Shown piece by piece: positions 4,014-11,107 of a DNA stretch of 23,703 nt. The DNA lies in IMG/VR virus record IMGVR_UViG_3300033997_000158, positions 1-23,703 of that record. One strand, given 5' to 3'. Each line of letters opens with the position of its first letter. Position 1 is the stretch's first letter. The translations under genes were made by a program, and so were the position numbers. Below the pieces are notes generated by a model. That model saw nothing but the letters and a program-made list of their open reading frames with translations. It made no database searches and was not told the DNA's origin. The DNA is from a virus.

Positions 4014-5039
4014 ATGGCCGCTGGCTACGATACGACCACCCTGCTGGGTGTGAAGGAACTTCTGCCGAAGTTCACCCCGCTGTTCCTGCAGATGTTCTTC
4101 CCGACTGCTGCCACCTTCGACACCGAAGAAGTGGCCTTCGACAAAATCAAGAAGGATCGCCGCCTGGCGCCCTTCGTTTCTCCGCTGGTATCCGGTCGCC
4201 CGCGCCGTGAGCGTGGCGGCTTCCTCACCACGCTCAAGCCGGCCTACATCAAGGAAACCGATGTTGTGCGCCCGACCCGCTTGCTCAAACGTCGCCTGGG
4301 CGAAGCGCTGAACGGCGAAATGAGCATCGCCCAACGTCATGACGCCGTCGTGGCGGACATCCTCGTCGAGCAGGAGGAAAACATCGTCGCCCGCGAAGAG
4401 TGGATGGCGGTGCAGGCCGTCCTCTACGGCAAGGTCGTCATGGAAGGCCCTGACCATCCGCCGGTCGAGGTCGACTACGGTCGCAACCCGGACAACCAAA
4501 TCGTCCTGGCTGGTGCCGCGAAGTGGGACACCGTAGACCCGGAAACCTACGACCCCACCGACGACATCGAGGACTGGGCGGCGCTCACCACCGGTTCTGC
4601 TGGTGTGCTGATGATGGGTAAAGGTGCCTGGCGTCTGTTCTCCCGCTTCAAGGCGGTGAAGGAGAAGCTCGACACCCGCCGTGGCAGCACCAGCCAACTG
4701 GAGCTCGGCCCGCAGCTGGAGAAGGAAGTCATGCGCAAGGGCTTCTACGGTGAGTACGAAATCATCGTCTACACCGGCAAGTACACCAACGACGAAGGGC
4801 AGAAGACCAACTTCATGCCCGAGTACGGTGTACTGGTGGCGCCTGCCATGGCAGACAACGTGATGGCCTACGGCGGCATTCAGGATGCCAAGGCAAACGC
4901 CAATGGCATCGCTGCGGCCGAGCGCTACCCGTCCAACTGGTTCACCGACAACCCCAGTGTCGAGTGGCTGCAAACGCAGACCGCTCCGGTACCGGTGCTG
5001 TTCGACGCCGACGAGTTCACCTTCGTCCTGGTCGCCTGA
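4014..5039 (+). CDS. Major capsid protein (lambda gpE family)
   Basis: The protein has 341 residues, the same length as lambda gpE. Family features are the N-terminal segment KFTPLFLQMFFPTAATFDTEEVAFDKI, the central RRERGGFLTTLKPAYIKETDVV, a long helix with RHDAVVADILVEQEENIVAREEWMAVQ, and the C-terminal IIVYTGKYTNDEGQKTNFMPEYGVLV followed by ERYPSNWFTDNPSVEWLQTQTAPVPV. It would adopt the HK97 fold and build the icosahedral shell. A good ribosome binding site (AGGAG) precedes the ATG. It is the only head gene here preceded by its own terminator and a fresh ribosome binding site, which fits the need for several hundred copies. Confidence 0.93.
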   Translation: MAAGYDTTTLLGVKELLPKFTPLFLQMFFPTAATFDTEEVAFDKIKKDRRLAPFVSPLVSGRPRRERGGFLTTLKPAYIKETDVVRPTRLLKRRLGEALNGEMSIAQRHDAVVADILVEQEENIVAREEWMAVQAVLYGKVVMEGPDHPPVEVDYGRNPDNQIVLAGAAKWDTVDPETYDPTDDIEDWAALTTGSAGVLMMGKGAWRLFSRFKAVKEKLDTRRGSTSQLELGPQLEKEVMRKGFYGEYEIIVYTGKYTNDEGQKTNFMPEYGVLVAPAMADNVMAYGGIQDAKANANGIAAAERYPSNWFTDNPSVEWLQTQTAPVPVLFDADEFTFVLVA

Positions 5040-6677: not shown

Positions 6678-6862
6678 GCAAGAGCAAAGCGGCCGACCCC
6701 GGCCAGGTGGAGAAGGTCGAGGTTACCCTCGCCAAGCCCCACACCCATGGCCGTCAGCGCTTGAAGGCTGGCGACAAAATCAAAGTAACCGCTGAACAGA
6801 AGGTCTGGCTGGAAAAGCAGGGCGTGGTCGGCGGCCAGCAGGAGGAAGTGACCAATGGCTGA
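6674..6862 (+). CDS. Small DUF7210-like protein
   Basis: A 62-residue protein with VEVTLAKPHTHGRQRLKAGDKIKV followed by TAEQKVWLEKQGVVGG. The pattern strand, PHTH, K-x-G-D-x-I-x-V, then a helix ending at a G-V turn is typical of small phage proteins grouped as DUF7210, usually found near head-tail and tail-tube genes. Function is unknown. It overlaps the gene before by four bases and the tail tube by eight, so its translation is likely coupled to both. It resembles the first half of the protein at 5091-5327. Confidence 0.72.
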   Translation: MSKSKAADPGQVEKVEVTLAKPHTHGRQRLKAGDKIKVTAEQKVWLEKQGVVGGQQEEVTNG

Positions 6863-7598
6863 TATCCGTGGCGCCTTTCTCGGCGTAGGCAAGCAATACA
6901 TCGAGGATCTGGACGATCCGAAGGGCCTGATCTTCATCGGTAACTGCAACAGCCTGAACTACCAGGCCGAGACGCAGGATATCGAAGAGCAGGACTACAC
7001 CACCCCTGGTGGTGGCCTCGATGCCTCGGTGCAGCGCATCAGTTCGCTGACGGTCACCTACAACGCTCGCCATTTCAAAGCGGCGAACATGGCGCGTGCG
7101 CTGTTCGGTAGCAGCGAGGACGTTGCCGCTGGCACCGTGACCGCCGAGCCGCACAAGGCTTACCCGGGCGCGCTGCTGATGCTGGCTAACCCCGGCGCCA
7201 CCAACGTGGTGATCACCCCGGGAGCGGGCGGGGCTGCGCTGGTGCTCGATACCGACTACACCATCGACCCGGCTGGCTTCCCGGTCATCACCGAGGGCGG
7301 CGCGGTCACCGATGCGGGTGTGGATGTCGAGGTGGACTACTCGTACGCCAAGCACGCCACCATCCAGGCGCTTGTTCGCTCCGGCAAGCGTTACCGCCAC
7401 GTGTTCGTTGGCCTGAACGAAGCGCGCAGCGGCAAACCGGTGGTGATCGAGTGCTACCGCGTCAACCACTCGCCTGCCAGCCTGAGCTTCATCGGTGATG
7501 AGTTCCAGGGCATGGAGTTCACCGCCAAGGTGGAAAAGGACGCCACCAAGGTCGGCACCGGTCTATCGCAATACATGGTGATCAAGGACGTGGAGTGA
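6855..7598 (+). CDS. Major tail tube protein (gpV position)
   Basis: The protein has 247 residues (lambda gpV has 246). The N-terminal half opens MADIRGAFLGVGKQYIEDLD, then has the tube-type motif FIGNCNSLNYQAETQDIEEQDY followed by a Gly-rich loop and SLTVTYNARHF. A middle region of about residues 105-160 (PGATNVVITPGAGGAALVLDTDY) looks like an inserted beta domain, and the C-terminal part (KRYRHVFVGLNEARSGKPVVIE, then FQGMEFTAKVEKD) closes the tube fold. Hexamers would stack to form the flexible tail. In lambda the next genes are the chaperones G/T; here a 3.1-kb cassette intervenes, with its first gene converging on this one 19 bases away and no clear terminator between them. Confidence 0.85.
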   Translation: MADIRGAFLGVGKQYIEDLDDPKGLIFIGNCNSLNYQAETQDIEEQDYTTPGGGLDASVQRISSLTVTYNARHFKAANMARALFGSSEDVAAGTVTAEPHKAYPGALLMLANPGATNVVITPGAGGAALVLDTDYTIDPAGFPVITEGGAVTDAGVDVEVDYSYAKHATIQALVRSGKRYRHVFVGLNEARSGKPVVIECYRVNHSPASLSFIGDEFQGMEFTAKVEKDATKVGTGLSQYMVIKDVE

Positions 7599-7617: not shown

Positions 7618-8196
7618 TCAGCTTTCTTGAAGTTTCGCCTGAAGCGCTGTGACGGAATCAGTGAACGCCGAGAAAGCTCGGTCCAGCAGTTTGAAGGATC
7701 GCGCATCGGCTCCGCTGCAAACCAGTTTCCACGGCAGCGTTGAAGGTTCGCTGATATCGACCCATGACTTTGTAGCCCAGTCCAATTCTCTGCGGGTCGT
7801 CAATGGCGTGTAGTAGAGGCCGGCATCCGGGGTTTTCCTCGGCTTGCCGTTTTTGAAAAGTCTGCCGATTTCGACGAAATCAGGCCCTGCACTTGTGTGC
7901 CAGCCAGCTGCCATAAGCGCAGGCATCAAGTCATCGAGGTGCTGCTGGAATGACCAGCTGCTGCGATCCTCTTTGGGGCGATATGGCTCGATGGGTTGAG
8001 TGGTCGCGAGCTCAACCTTCGCAAGCTTGAAGGATTTGCGTGCGTTTGTTTCGAGGCACCTTGCGATAAGTGTATCGCCGCGCAGCTCAATCGGTGAGAT
8101 CGCTCTGGCGGAGCCTGGAGAGCTACCGCCGTGATAGATGATGGTGGTTTGCCCCTTGCGCTCAATGACCTGCTGCAGGTGTTCGGTAACGTCCAT
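7618..8196 (-). CDS. WYL-like domain protein of the inserted cassette
   Basis: This leftward gene encodes 192 residues. The chosen ATG at 8196 has an AGAGG eight bases upstream; a longer open frame reaching 8322 would overlap the upstream repressor gene and lacks that support. Residues about 15-50 (TTIIYHGGSSPGSARAISP, then ELRGDTLIARCLETN and RKSFKLAKVE) match the shape of a WYL domain: a strand ending in Y, a conserved P, then A-x-C and a K-S-F strand. WYL domains sense ligands in many transcription regulators. The remainder (from about 65) is a charged helical and strand region with GPDFVEIGRLF and GLYYTPLT that I do not recognise. It lies 13 bases downstream of the ribbon-helix-helix gene, so they are likely co-transcribed. 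Confidence 0.72.
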   Translation of the reverse strand: MDVTEHLQQVIERKGQTTIIYHGGSSPGSARAISPIELRGDTLIARCLETNARKSFKLAKVELATTQPIEPYRPKEDRSSWSFQQHLDDLMPALMAAGWHTSAGPDFVEIGRLFKNGKPRKTPDAGLYYTPLTTRRELDWATKSWVDISEPSTLPWKLVCSGADARSFKLLDRAFSAFTDSVTALQAKLQES

Positions 8197-8209
8197 TGTT
8201 AGCCTCTGG

Positions 8210-8569
8210 CTATTCGTCTGAAGTCGCTGTGCCTTGTGGAAATGAATCGGAAAGGAACTGCAAGCTTCTGGCGATGGTGTGGCGGAGATTTTTGGCGGCG
8301 CGCTCTTCATGCTCCAGCTCAACCAGCTCCATAGGGGTTGGTTTCTTGATCGCCCTTAACTCAGCCAAGCGCGCAGAGCTTTCTTCGTGCAGTTTGCGCA
8401 GCATTAGTAAGGCTGGTGCTGCCGGTGGCTCTACCTGGCTGAAGCTGTCTTGCAGTCGAGCAATGATTTCAGCGGTTGCCGATCGCTTGTTGTGTTTCGC
8501 GGCCTCTTCCACCTGCGCCTTGAGGGCGGCAGGGATACGAAGGTTGAACTGTGGATCTGTGCGGCTCAT
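8210..8569 (-). CDS. Arc/Mnt-type ribbon-helix-helix repressor (Mnt-like position)
   Basis: The protein has 119 residues. The N-terminus MSRTDPQFNLRIPAALKAQV is the classic Arc-family ribbon strand and first helix, followed by RSATAEIIARLQDSF as the second helix. Dimers of this fold insert the paired strand into the DNA major groove. After residue 50 comes a helical tail with ARLAELRAIKKPTPMELVEL, perhaps an oligomerisation region as in Mnt. The ATG at 8569 is chosen because it begins the family consensus; no good Shine-Dalgarno is visible, and an in-frame GTG at 8608 and ATG at 8605 lie within the first operator repeat. Divergent from the second Arc-like gene, it takes the place of P22 mnt, whose product represses ant in the lysogen. 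Confidence 0.82.
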   Translation of the reverse strand: MSRTDPQFNLRIPAALKAQVEEAAKHNKRSATAEIIARLQDSFSQVEPPAAPALLMLRKLHEESSARLAELRAIKKPTPMELVELEHEERAAKNLRHTIARSLQFLSDSFPQGTATSDE

Positions 8570-8599
8570 GGGAGTAGTTCTGATTAACAGAACATGAGG

Positions 8600-8657
8600 A
8601 TGCATCACGGTGCTATTGACGGCAATGCATCACCGTTCTATAACTATGCATCACCGT
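8600..8657. promoter_or_regulatory. Three direct 12-bp operator-like repeats
   Basis: ATGCATCACCGT occurs exactly at 8625-8636 and 8646-8657, and with one change (ATGCATCACGGT) at 8600-8611. Starts are 25 and 21 bases apart, near whole helical turns for the last two. One copy lies just upstream of the -35 box, one within the spacer and one just after the -10 box of the rightward promoter. Ribbon-helix-helix proteins typically bind short tandem sites, so one or both Arc-like proteins are the likely ligands. Confidence 0.7.
8616..8644 (+). promoter_or_regulatory. Sigma-70-type promoter for the arc-like and antirepressor genes
   Basis: TTGACG (8616-8621), a spacer of exactly 17 bases and TATAAC (8639-8644) give 10 of 12 consensus matches. 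Transcription would start near 8651, about 27 bases before the GTG of the arc-like gene. It corresponds in position to P22 Pant. The overlapping repeats make it a repressible promoter. No convincing leftward promoter was found in the same gap. Confidence 0.72.
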
Positions 8658-8677
8658 AATACATAGGGGGTCGTGAA

Positions 8678-8827
8678 GTGAGCAGAGCAGACACGCAAGT
8701 CAATGTCCGGATGCCTGATGCCTTGAAGGCTTGGCTGCAGGAGCAGGCAGCCGCCAACCGTCGCAGCTTCACTGCTGAGGTGGTTATCCGGCTTGAAGAG
8801 TCGAAAAAGATGCAGGAGGCAGCGTGA
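8678..8827 (+). CDS. Small Arc-like ribbon-helix-helix repressor
   Basis: A 49-residue protein from GTG at 8678, with AGGGGG at 8665-8670 seven bases upstream. The sequence VSRADTQVNVRMPDALKAWL gives the ribbon strand and first helix, then RRSFTAEVVIRLEESKK gives the second helix; this is a whole Arc-type domain and little else. P22 Arc is 53 residues. It sits between promoter and antirepressor on the same strand, as P22 arc does, where it throttles both early immunity-I promoters to prevent excess antirepressor. The gene is too short for many gene finders. Its last bases (GTGA at 8824-8827) overlap an alternative in-frame GTG for the antirepressor. Confidence 0.85.
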   Translation: MSRADTQVNVRMPDALKAWLQEQAAANRRSFTAEVVIRLEESKKMQEAA

Positions 8828-8832
8828 CGCTG

Positions 8833-8868
8833 AAAAAGAAAAGCCCCGGCATTGCGGGCCAGGGCTTT
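8833..8868 (-). terminator. Leftward intrinsic terminator in the arc-like/antirepressor gap
   Basis: AAAGCCC (8840-8846) pairs with GGGCTTT (8862-8868), with three further inner pairs (8848-8850 with 8858-8860). Read on the minus strand the stem is followed by TTTTCTTTTT, a good termination tract; on the plus strand only TTT follows. It therefore works best on leftward, antisense transcription from the start of the antirepressor gene, although the same hairpin could slow rightward transcripts. Confidence 0.55.
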
Positions 8869-8895
8869 GGTGTAAATCATTACGAGGCGATTCAC

Positions 8896-9906
8896 ATGGA
8901 AAATACTAACGCAATTTCAAAAGAAAACAATGCCCAGCTCGGAACCGTCGAGTTCCTTGGCAAGCCGCTGACCGTCATCGTTACTGACTCCCAACTGCTG
9001 GTCGCCATGCGCCCGATCTGCGAAGGCATCGGGCTGGACTGGAAGTCGCAGTATGAGCGCATCAAGCGAGACGAAGTGCTTTCGACCTCCATGGTTGTCA
9101 TGACCACACAGATGCCGGGTGATGATCAGAAGCGTCAGGTGACTTGTCTGCCGCTTAGTATGCTCAACGGCTGGCTGTTCGGTGTCGACTCCAAGCGCTG
9201 CAAGCCCTTCATTCGCCAAGCGCTGGTGCGCTACAAATTCGAGTGCTACGACGCCTTGGCGGCCTACTGGCAGGGGCACAGTGCCAAAGCGCTACCTGAG
9301 CCGCCGGCACTGCCTGCGCCTGAAGCGGCTGACCGCATCACCCACGCCTTCCGTGGTTCGCGTGTGGAGTTTCTGGTTGATGGCCGGCAGGTGTGGGTCA
9401 AGGCCAGTTGCATCACCACGGCGCTGGGCTTGGGCAGCTCTGACCGCATCACCCGCAGCCTGGCTGATGACCGCAAGGTCTACCGCATGCGCGGGCAGCA
9501 GAAGCATTGGTTCATCGACCCGGCTGCCGCCTTGCGTGCTGCTGGCTACGTGCGCGAGAGCGAGAAGGCCAAAGCCTGGGAAGAGTGGCTGGCCAGCGTG
9601 CTGAAAACCTTCGATGCCGGTGTGCAGAAGGCAGCGCTGGTTGAAGCCTTGGTGCCGGGGCATACGCCGGTGGAGCGTTACGGCCTGGAGCAATTGCTCG
9701 ATACCAAGCTGCTGTTCAGCCTCGACGAACAGGGTAGGGCGCAGGTTAAGCCGATCCCGCCAGGCGCGGTGATCGTCACCCCGGAGCGCCTGGCCGATGT
9801 GCTGCGTGATCCGTTCACGGTGCCGGTGGAGTACTTGCCCAACCTCATGCAGGTCATCGCCGGCCGCATGGGCGCAGTGCTCCAGCACGCTCTGCCCCGC
9901 CGTTAG
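8896..9906 (+). CDS. Phage antirepressor (P22_AR N-terminal domain plus BRO-like region)
   Basis: The protein has 336 residues from ATG at 8896, with GAGG at 8884-8888 upstream. Residues about 15-128 are a P22_AR-type domain: VEFLGKPLTVIVTDSQLLVAM, then GIGLDWKSQYERIKRDEVL, then CLPLSMLNGWLFGVD and the helix IRQALVRYKFECYDALAAYW. Residues about 150-240 look like a diverged BRO-type domain (VWVKASCITTALGLGSSDRI, then HWFIDPAAALRAAGYV). The C-terminus of about 90 residues is not recognised. Ant of P22 binds and inactivates the c2-type repressor. An in-frame GTG at 8824 would add 24 residues encoded across the hairpin; this is less likely given the ribosome binding site at 8884. Confidence 0.87.
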   Translation: MENTNAISKENNAQLGTVEFLGKPLTVIVTDSQLLVAMRPICEGIGLDWKSQYERIKRDEVLSTSMVVMTTQMPGDDQKRQVTCLPLSMLNGWLFGVDSKRCKPFIRQALVRYKFECYDALAAYWQGHSAKALPEPPALPAPEAADRITHAFRGSRVEFLVDGRQVWVKASCITTALGLGSSDRITRSLADDRKVYRMRGQQKHWFIDPAAALRAAGYVRESEKAKAWEEWLASVLKTFDAGVQKAALVEALVPGHTPVERYGLEQLLDTKLLFSLDEQGRAQVKPIPPGAVIVTPERLADVLRDPFTVPVEYLPNLMQVIAGRMGAVLQHALPRR

Positions 9907-9923
9907 AGCAACCGCTTGCCGAT

Positions 9924-9945
9924 AACCCAGCCAGGTGCTGGGTTT
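9924..9945 (+). terminator. Hairpin after the antirepressor gene, weak terminator
   Basis: AACCCAGC (9924-9931), loop CAGGT, GCTGGGTT (9937-9944) forms an 8-bp perfect stem followed by only one more T and then CGG. It ends the antirepressor unit 18 bases after the stop. The short T-run makes it a weak terminator. The rest of the 97-base gap (9907-10003) holds no clear promoter. Confidence 0.5.
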
Positions 9946-10003
9946 CGGTGTTGGTGCTGATCGGCTAGAGTCCCTGCTACGTCAGATGGGGAGGGAAAGC
10001 CCG

Positions 10004-10759
10004 ATGCAGTGTCCTAAGTGCCGCTATGAGCCGACTATGGCCGAAATGCAGCGCAGCCCGCATGAATGTGTGAAATGTGGTGCATCTTTAGCCACAAATG
10101 CGGGCAAGCAGACTAAGAGTGTCAGGGCGCGGCCCGGCGAGAAGCCAAGCGGAGCCAAGCTTTTAGTGTTTTTGGCGATCATCGCAATTGTTGCGTTGTT
10201 TGCTGGTTTTAAGTTGTTTCAGAGGCAGCAGGCTGTTTCGGCAATTGAGACCGAGCTCCGATTGACGACAGCGCAAACTAGGCAGGTTGTTACGGCACTT
10301 GATGGCGCTGGAGGTATGACATTCGCCGAATACTTCCAGAAGGCGAACTCAGGCATCAGTGAGATTGACGCTGCTATGGTTCGGGTTTCGGTTGTCAGGC
10401 CGTTAGTCGACCTTGCCGTGCCCGCTGAAGCCTATATGAAGGCATCCCAAGAATTGATTCGCAGCATGTCATCCGTTATGCGGATTAGCCTGGAGTATTC
10501 GACCGCTGAGTCCCGGTTGCAGACCGCCAAGGATGATAGCGCTTCTAGTAATAGCTACATTCGAGAGCGGGCCCTTGATCGCCAACTGGAGGCAACCAAT
10601 GAACTCATTGCGCTAATCAAGAAAATTGAGGCTGCGCAGAACAGCACTCGTAAGGCGGCAGCAGATTTGCTGGTTGCGGGAGAGGCAGTTGGCGGTAATG
10701 AGGGAGAGACAGTCATAGCCAGGTCAGTTTTAGAGAGGTTTACAAAAGAATCCAAATAA
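10004..10759 (+). CDS. Zinc-ribbon, single-pass membrane protein (moron candidate)
   Basis: The protein has 251 residues from ATG at 10004, preceded by GGGAGGGAAAG; earlier in-frame starts at 9935 and 9986 lack such a site. Cys3, Cys6, Cys22 and Cys25 (CPKC and CVKC) form a zinc ribbon. A basic linker precedes one membrane segment at about 53-69 (LLVFLAIIAIVALFAGF). The remaining 180 residues are mostly helical and polar, with a likely coiled coil around 155-225 (ATNELIALIKKIEAAQNS). Bacterial proteins with an N-terminal cytoplasmic zinc ribbon, one membrane helix and an extracytoplasmic helical domain are common, but I do not recognise this one. Base composition looks lower in G+C than the tail genes. 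It has its own strong terminator, as expected for a lysogen-expressed extra gene. Confidence 0.8.
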   Translation: MQCPKCRYEPTMAEMQRSPHECVKCGASLATNAGKQTKSVRARPGEKPSGAKLLVFLAIIAIVALFAGFKLFQRQQAVSAIETELRLTTAQTRQVVTALDGAGGMTFAEYFQKANSGISEIDAAMVRVSVVRPLVDLAVPAEAYMKASQELIRSMSSVMRISLEYSTAESRLQTAKDDSASSNSYIRERALDRQLEATNELIALIKKIEAAQNSTRKAAADLLVAGEAVGGNEGETVIARSVLERFTKESK

Positions 10760-10795: not shown

Positions 10796-11107
10796 ATGAG
10801 TGAAAGCGCTGTAGGTAAAACGGTGATCAAAAAGCTCAGTAATGGTCAGCGTGTGCCTTGCATGGAGCTGACTGTGGGGCAGGCGCGCGGGCTGCTGCAG
10901 CCAAGGCAAGGTAGTGACGTGGTAGATGAGCTGCTGCTTGAGGATTTGCGCCTACCGGACCTACCACTATTCACCGGGCTGAAAGTCGAGGAGCTGGAGC
11001 AGATGCTACCCAGTGACCTAGAGATGCTGGTGGAAGGCTGCAAGGAGGCAAACCCCAGTTTTTTTCGCATGCTGGCCAAGTTGGCCAGCATGAACAAGCA
11101 GGCCTGA
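10796..11107 (+). CDS. Tail assembly chaperone, short form (gpG-like)
   Basis: The protein has 103 residues and is placed immediately before the tape measure gene. It opens with a charged segment (GKTVIKKLSNGQRVPCMELTVGQAR) followed by helices with DVVDELLLEDLRLPDLPLF and GLKVEELEQMLPSDLEMLVEG, and ends with NPSFFRMLAKLAS. Such small acidic, helical proteins coat the tape measure protein during tail assembly and are absent from the virion. Near its 3' end lies a run of seven T in the phase needed for a -1 frameshift, which yields the extended form in the next entry. A ribosome binding site (CGGAGA) precedes the ATG, just after the cassette terminator. Confidence 0.82.
   Translation: MSESAVGKTVIKKLSNGQRVPCMELTVGQARGLLQPRQGSDVVDELLLEDLRLPDLPLFTGLKVEELEQMLPSDLEMLVEGCKEANPSFFRMLAKLASMNKQA

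Follow-up and report, generated by a model that had tools for sequence, protein, structure and literature searches.

Organization of the locus

The window is a whole virus record of 23,703 bp that carries head and tail genes; the early region and the main repressor gene are absent from this 23.7-kb record. In its tail operon, the order from left to right is the major tail protein gene (6855..7598, plus strand; phrog_807, 1.5e-67), a leftward gene of 192 aa, a leftward mnt-like gene, a control region, a rightward arc-like gene, the rightward antirepressor gene ant, a zinc-ribbon gene and a tail assembly chaperone-like gene (10796..11107, plus strand; phrog_7608, 6.8e-22, with a weak Phage_TAC_7 match in Pfam). 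The first and last of these are the left and right neighbours of the module rather than parts of it. A preliminary description had placed a switch of the P22 immunity-I (immI) kind at 7618–9906, between tail tube and chaperone genes. The genes within that span are as described, and the major tail protein gene does lie 5' of them. Two details differ: 7618..8196 is a separate third gene on the minus strand, not the Mnt-like gene, and on the right the zinc-ribbon gene separates ant from the chaperone-like gene. A megablast search of the region against phages returned no match.

The product of the 192-aa gene 3' of mnt (7618..8196) is weakly WYL-like (phrog_8498, 1.7e-22; PADLOC WYL, 2.3e-4); its Pfam WYL value of 0.19 is under the cut-off. 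Genes in this leftward slot are candidates for lysogenic conversion or exclusion. At the other end, a possible ant terminator hairpin (AACCCAGC/GCTGGGTT; 9924..9944, plus strand) with a weak T-run was read from the sequence, at a place equivalent to that of the P22 ant terminator. The zinc-ribbon/membrane gene beyond it (9935..10759, plus strand; real start probably 10004) was considered as a part of the module and rejected, because its N-terminus also occurs in relatives without the module. Among relatives this N-terminus is conserved and the rest of the protein highly variable.

Arc-family repressors and operator-like repeats

The two small divergent genes had been proposed to encode ribbon-helix-helix proteins. 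Profile searches confirm this, both products scoring above the curated Pfam cut-off for Arc (PF03869) of 20.4 bits. The leftward, Mnt-like repressor of 119 aa (8210..8569, minus strand) scores 53.6 bits (2e-14) and the rightward, Arc-like repressor of 49 aa (8678..8827, plus strand; GTG start) 29.4 bits (7e-7). The Mnt-like protein has a longer C-terminal part and aligns with solved Mnt (7e-4) and Arc (2e-3). Its contact strand, QFNLR, is that of P22 Arc and not of Mnt, which counts against the assignment of Mnt and Arc jobs to the two proteins. In Pseudomonas chengduensis DSM 26382, residues 1–44 of the Mnt-like protein are 90.9% identical and the Arc-like protein is 93.8% identical.

A promoter-operator region between the divergent genes, also predicted earlier, is found at 8600..8662. 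Three operator-like direct repeats ATGCATCACSGT begin at 8600, 8625 and 8646; the three matches in the window compare with 0.24 expected, and none falls outside the control region. They straddle a candidate rightward promoter, Pant (TTGACG, 17 nt, TATAAC; 8616..8644, plus strand), recognized by reading of the sequence, with one repeat within the spacer; the promoter scan overlooked it because a T was required at the last position. Operators overlapping a candidate Pant between two repressor genes are the arrangement of immI, here at the level of sequence. The same geometry recurs in Pseudomonas phage UFJF_PfDIW6 and in the related modules L004, L015 and L017, with differing operator sequences. 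These differences track the Mnt-like contact strand: QFNLR pairs with the operator TGCATCAC in the window, L015, L017 and UFJF_PfDIW6, and QVNFR with AAAGCA in L004 and L042. The Arc-like strand QVVVR is common to L004 and L017, although their operators differ. Since the operator follows the strand of the Mnt-like and not of the Arc-like protein, this small sample suggests that the repeats are read mainly by the Mnt-like protein.

A putative antisense RNA locus between arc and ant

The sar RNA of P22 is a textbook antisense RNA that has been described in P22-like phages. The preliminary description named mnt, arc and ant correctly, and overlooked a fourth part of immI, a sar-like locus in the arc–ant gap. 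This gap measures 68 nt in both P22 and the window and 67–73 nt across ten modules. A covariance model built from nine modules, with the window and L015 left out, places a sar-like core of two hairpins at 8838..8898 on the minus strand (47.1 bits, E=4.2e-9). The next best match in the whole window has E=0.24, and the module-free relatives searched gave no match. The full length of the Rfam sar family (RF00262) aligns to the minus strand at 8836–8909 with 18.6 bits, against a gathering threshold of 43. This family gives 97.8 bits for P22, 39.3 for L002, 37.4 for UFJF_PfDIW6, 24.2 for Salmonella phage Oslo, 21.4 for Erwinia phage Midgardsormr38 and 27.1 for a Klebsiella phage; in the window and the last five the match always lies at the arc–ant gap.

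The element spans the ribosome site of ant, and the loop of hairpin I holds CCUC, the complement of the ant Shine–Dalgarno sequence. Hairpin II is predicted by a terminator scan to act as a strong leftward intrinsic terminator, with 11 bp followed by a U-tract (8840..8868, minus strand). Aligning the sar region in full with MAFFT misregistered the arms, and pairing was therefore scored within the hairpin only. Over 11 modules, 90.5% of cells are paired, against 37–60% when slid. The covariation score was reached by none of 500 shuffles, pairing being kept despite changes in both arms. When the antisense strand of the gap is folded, most modules yield two hairpins, with z-scores from -1.9 to -5.8 (window, -3.79).

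It is very unlikely that the gap is instead conserved for protein, ant starting at GTG 8824 with a 24-residue extension. The gap frame is open in the window, L015, L004, L017, L042, L002 and UFJF_PfDIW6, and AGGAGG stands 5' of GTG 8824. However, this frame is interrupted by stops in P22 and Midgardsormr38, both hairpin arms change with pairing kept, and a GAGG lies 8 nt 5' of the ATG at 8896.

Structure alone cannot name the strand, because both strands fold alike. The function of the hairpins could be confined to the sense mRNA, or they could serve to terminate leftward transcription and so insulate mnt or block antisense transcripts, with no sar RNA made. Consistent with this is the weakness of the sar promoter in the window: the candidate Psar -10, TAGTAT (antisense), lies in ant codons 3–5 (8903..8908, minus strand), at about the position of the P22 Psar -10, but is not extended, a point counted against a sar RNA, and no convincing -35 accompanies it in the window. 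The reading is nevertheless considered unlikely. A T-run follows the hairpin on the minus strand only, annotated P22 sar lies at exactly this place, and many relatives have a leftward extended -10 near the P22 Psar position, within the first codons of unrelated cargo genes. A leftward -10-like hexamer (at least 4 of 6 positions) occurs in the first 30 nt of the next gene in nearly all modules listed. The sar-like transcript would start near 8896; its transcription and its pairing are presumed by analogy with P22.

The sar model also follows the repressor pair. Among loci recruited by their Mnt-like protein, all 16 that have a divergent pair of repressor genes are matched at the right place, against none of 27 searched that lack one; training and test loci are related, mostly from Pseudomonas phages, so that the 16 are not independent cases, and one of them, L195, reaches only E=0.13. 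The model performs weakly in phages other than those of Pseudomonas and the P22-like group: the Klebsiella locus has E=7e-4, and the Acinetobacter loci and L119 are recovered at the correct position with E of about 1 and rank under false matches elsewhere. L119 (3550–4100), from a low-GC phage, has a divergent ribbon-helix-helix pair, a gap of about 72 nt and a leftward hairpin with a U-tract, and thus presents a sar-like element far from Pseudomonas. A literature search, with subscription journals outside its scope, turned up no report of sar from phages of Pseudomonas.

The antirepressor and exchangeable cargo

The rightward gene 3' of arc (8896..9906, plus strand), predicted earlier to encode an antirepressor with a P22_AR domain, does so: its product of 336 aa matches P22_AR_N (PF10547) at 3.3e-32, above the Pfam cut-off, and the PHROG family 'anti-repressor Ant' at 1.9e-42. 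P22_AR_N covers residues 17–129. No P22_AR_C domain was found in Ant by Pfam; this was counted against the immI assignment, though the domain is variable in the group and not defining. The C-terminal domain (residues 146–336) is shared with AntA-type antirepressors; it has 94% identity with its counterpart in L003 and 90% with that in L004, whose antirepressor has an AntA N-terminal domain. The ant of L015 is 90% identical. An AlphaFold model of Ant from seven sequences (mean pLDDT 58.5) was too poor for a fold search.

Domain shuffling among antirepressors is established. What stands behind the sar-like element varies in kind: P22_AR_N proteins in the window, L002, L018, UFJF_PfDIW6, L162, L164 and the Klebsiella phage; AntA in L004, L017 and L132; pRha in L163 and L187; Bro-N in L168, L179, L181 and L186; ORF6N in Acinetobacter phage qsb1; DUF3077 in L174 and L185; and KilA-N, as the second gene, in L042. 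The balance tips slightly towards a reading in which mnt, arc, Pant and sar form a portable control cassette, independent of its cargo, that moves between phages and is joined to varied cargos shortly past the sar promoter, in their first codons. If so, control of timing by the antisense RNA would be conserved among immunity-breaking genes far outside P22. Joint inheritance of a sar-like RNA and the Mnt/Arc pair in phages of Pseudomonas, with junctions to many cargos, was not found described in a literature of which coverage was incomplete, and a description may exist elsewhere.

The two ribbon-helix-helix genes might also stand next to an antirepressor gene by coincidence, as a toxin–antitoxin pair beside ant would. 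This reading would draw on the abundance of Arc-family proteins and on the scarcity of the repressor pair, present at just 2 of the 80 top-ranking P22_AR_N loci; because of this count, P22_AR_N was rejected as a diagnostic for the module. Against it, many phages from several hosts, unrelated ones included, share the full gene order, and coincidence is exceedingly improbable.

Two further arrangements were observed. In L165, L174, L175 and L185 (about 4330–4650, minus strand), an ORF of about 100 aa, not an antirepressor gene, comes first after the sar-like element; in L165 it has no Pfam match. In L003 (5012–6639), the same tail slot holds a helix-turn-helix repressor in place of mnt and arc, and sar-like hairpins (33.3 bits) and the Ant C-terminal domain are kept.

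Insertion in the tail operon

In relatives L019, L021 and others, whose major tail proteins are about 80% identical, the major tail protein gene is followed directly by the zinc-ribbon and chaperone-like genes. In local alignments, homology with L021 and L019 ends at 7626 and restarts at 9930, so the intervening 2.3 kb or so (7627..9929, outer boundaries approximate) is an insertion absent from these empty sites. The stop codon of the leftward gene falls just outside it, in flank-like sequence. Related modules lie 3' of the major tail protein gene in L002/L016, L004, L015 (P. chengduensis), L018, L042, L132, L136 and L138; that of L017 occupies the equivalent part of the tail operon. With empty sites in relatives, its own candidate promoter and a terminator, the locus is, as judged from these features, a moron, and specifically an immI-type 'ant moron'.

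Such a moron might be selfish or benefit the host, its advantage coming from the variable leftward gene through exclusion or defence, and its Ant no longer targeting the phage's own repressor. Across modules the slot 3' of mnt indeed holds unrelated genes (a 218-aa gene in L015 and L004), much as sieA does in P22, and the 7618–8196 protein resembles WYL proteins weakly. PADLOC, however, returned that weak WYL match only, and Ant, Arc and the DNA-binding part of the Mnt-like protein have identities of roughly 90% and above in P. chengduensis, with the operators kept. An explanation by the leftward gene is accordingly rated as unlikely.

Relation to known systems

The kind of module is already known, as P22 immI and the 'ant moron'. 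The comparison of gene order in relatives upholds the immI-like layout proposed at the outset: mnt-like, arc-like and ant genes and the sar-like locus occur in P22 order and orientation, with Arc-family repressors, a P22_AR_N antirepressor and a gap of P22 length holding a leftward sar locus and terminator, at a late-operon site beside a leftward accessory gene (sieA in P22). The Ant N-terminal domain, by contrast, is only about 32% identical to that of P22, and the Ant C-terminal domain and operator sequence differ. P22 immI lies between late genes 16 and 9 (PMC2629481), whereas the window module lies in a siphovirus tail operon. The 'ant moron' of P22-like phages is likewise a variable, independently expressed late-operon insertion (PMC2629481), but always 5' of the tailspike gene, unlike the position 3' of a siphophage major tail protein gene seen here.

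The closest deposited phage found is UFJF_PfDIW6 (OM418631). Its Mnt-like protein is 70% identical over 44 aa, and it shares the operator repeat TGCATCACCGT and a sar-like element, which is unannotated; its locus differs in lying between tail spike and integrase, and in the C-terminal part of ant. Salmonella phage Oslo, Erwinia phage Midgardsormr38 and Acinetobacter phages Acba_1 and qsb1, of other tail families and hosts, also carry in the tail operon a divergent Arc-family or regulatory pair with an antirepressor-type gene, between the major tail protein or chaperone gene and the tape measure gene; the qsb1 module is oriented against the tail operon and has ORF6N cargo. The tail-operon location, which the preliminary description implied to be novel, is therefore already present in these four deposited genomes, and P22 immI itself lies among late genes. 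Phage ES18 has other morons in the slot. Besides its module, qsb1 has an 'AntB' gene between tail genes (L139, 9346–9888). A short nucleotide match in phage PAJU2 was set aside, no repressor or antirepressor gene being annotated beside it.

Proposed working of the module

The stretch is quite probably an immI module of the P22 kind, carried as a moron in the tail operon of a Pseudomonas-type siphophage, with P22-like control by Mnt, Arc, sar and Ant. Gene families, their order and orientation, the operator–promoter layout, the two-hairpin antisense locus and insertion at a defined site can all be read from the DNA; repressor binding, transcription and pairing of sar, and the target of Ant are taken from P22, and the mechanism is drawn by analogy with that phage (PMC11016777, PMC2629481). 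(i) In a lysogen, the Mnt-like repressor would bind the repeats overlapping Pant and keep arc and ant off. (ii) On entry of a module-bearing phage into a Mnt-free cell, or on loss of Mnt, Pant would fire. (iii) Arc would then turn the promoter off again. (iv) The sar-like RNA would pair with the arc–ant junction and block the ant ribosome site, so that Ant would be made only as a pulse. (v) The target that Ant binds and inactivates would be a prophage repressor of the CI type, presumably the main repressor of this phage.

The preliminary description cast the module as a path of induction. Deletion of immI in P22 lowers the frequency of lysogeny (PMC11016777), and the module may therefore tune the lysis–lysogeny choice instead. 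With a counterpart of sar in phages of Pseudomonas and, less strongly, of Acinetobacter and Klebsiella, found alongside the Mnt/Arc pair and swappable cargo, a system described from one kind of phage can be studied by comparison. Such comparison could address the choice of prophage repressors attacked by the exchanged antirepressors, and the reason for the repeated placement of the circuit in late operons. A Peptidase_S24 protein, of the LexA/CI-type repressor fold, is encoded at least once in each of the five relatives' records or genomes examined (for L015, counted over the whole bacterial genome), so a plausible class of targets for Ant exists.
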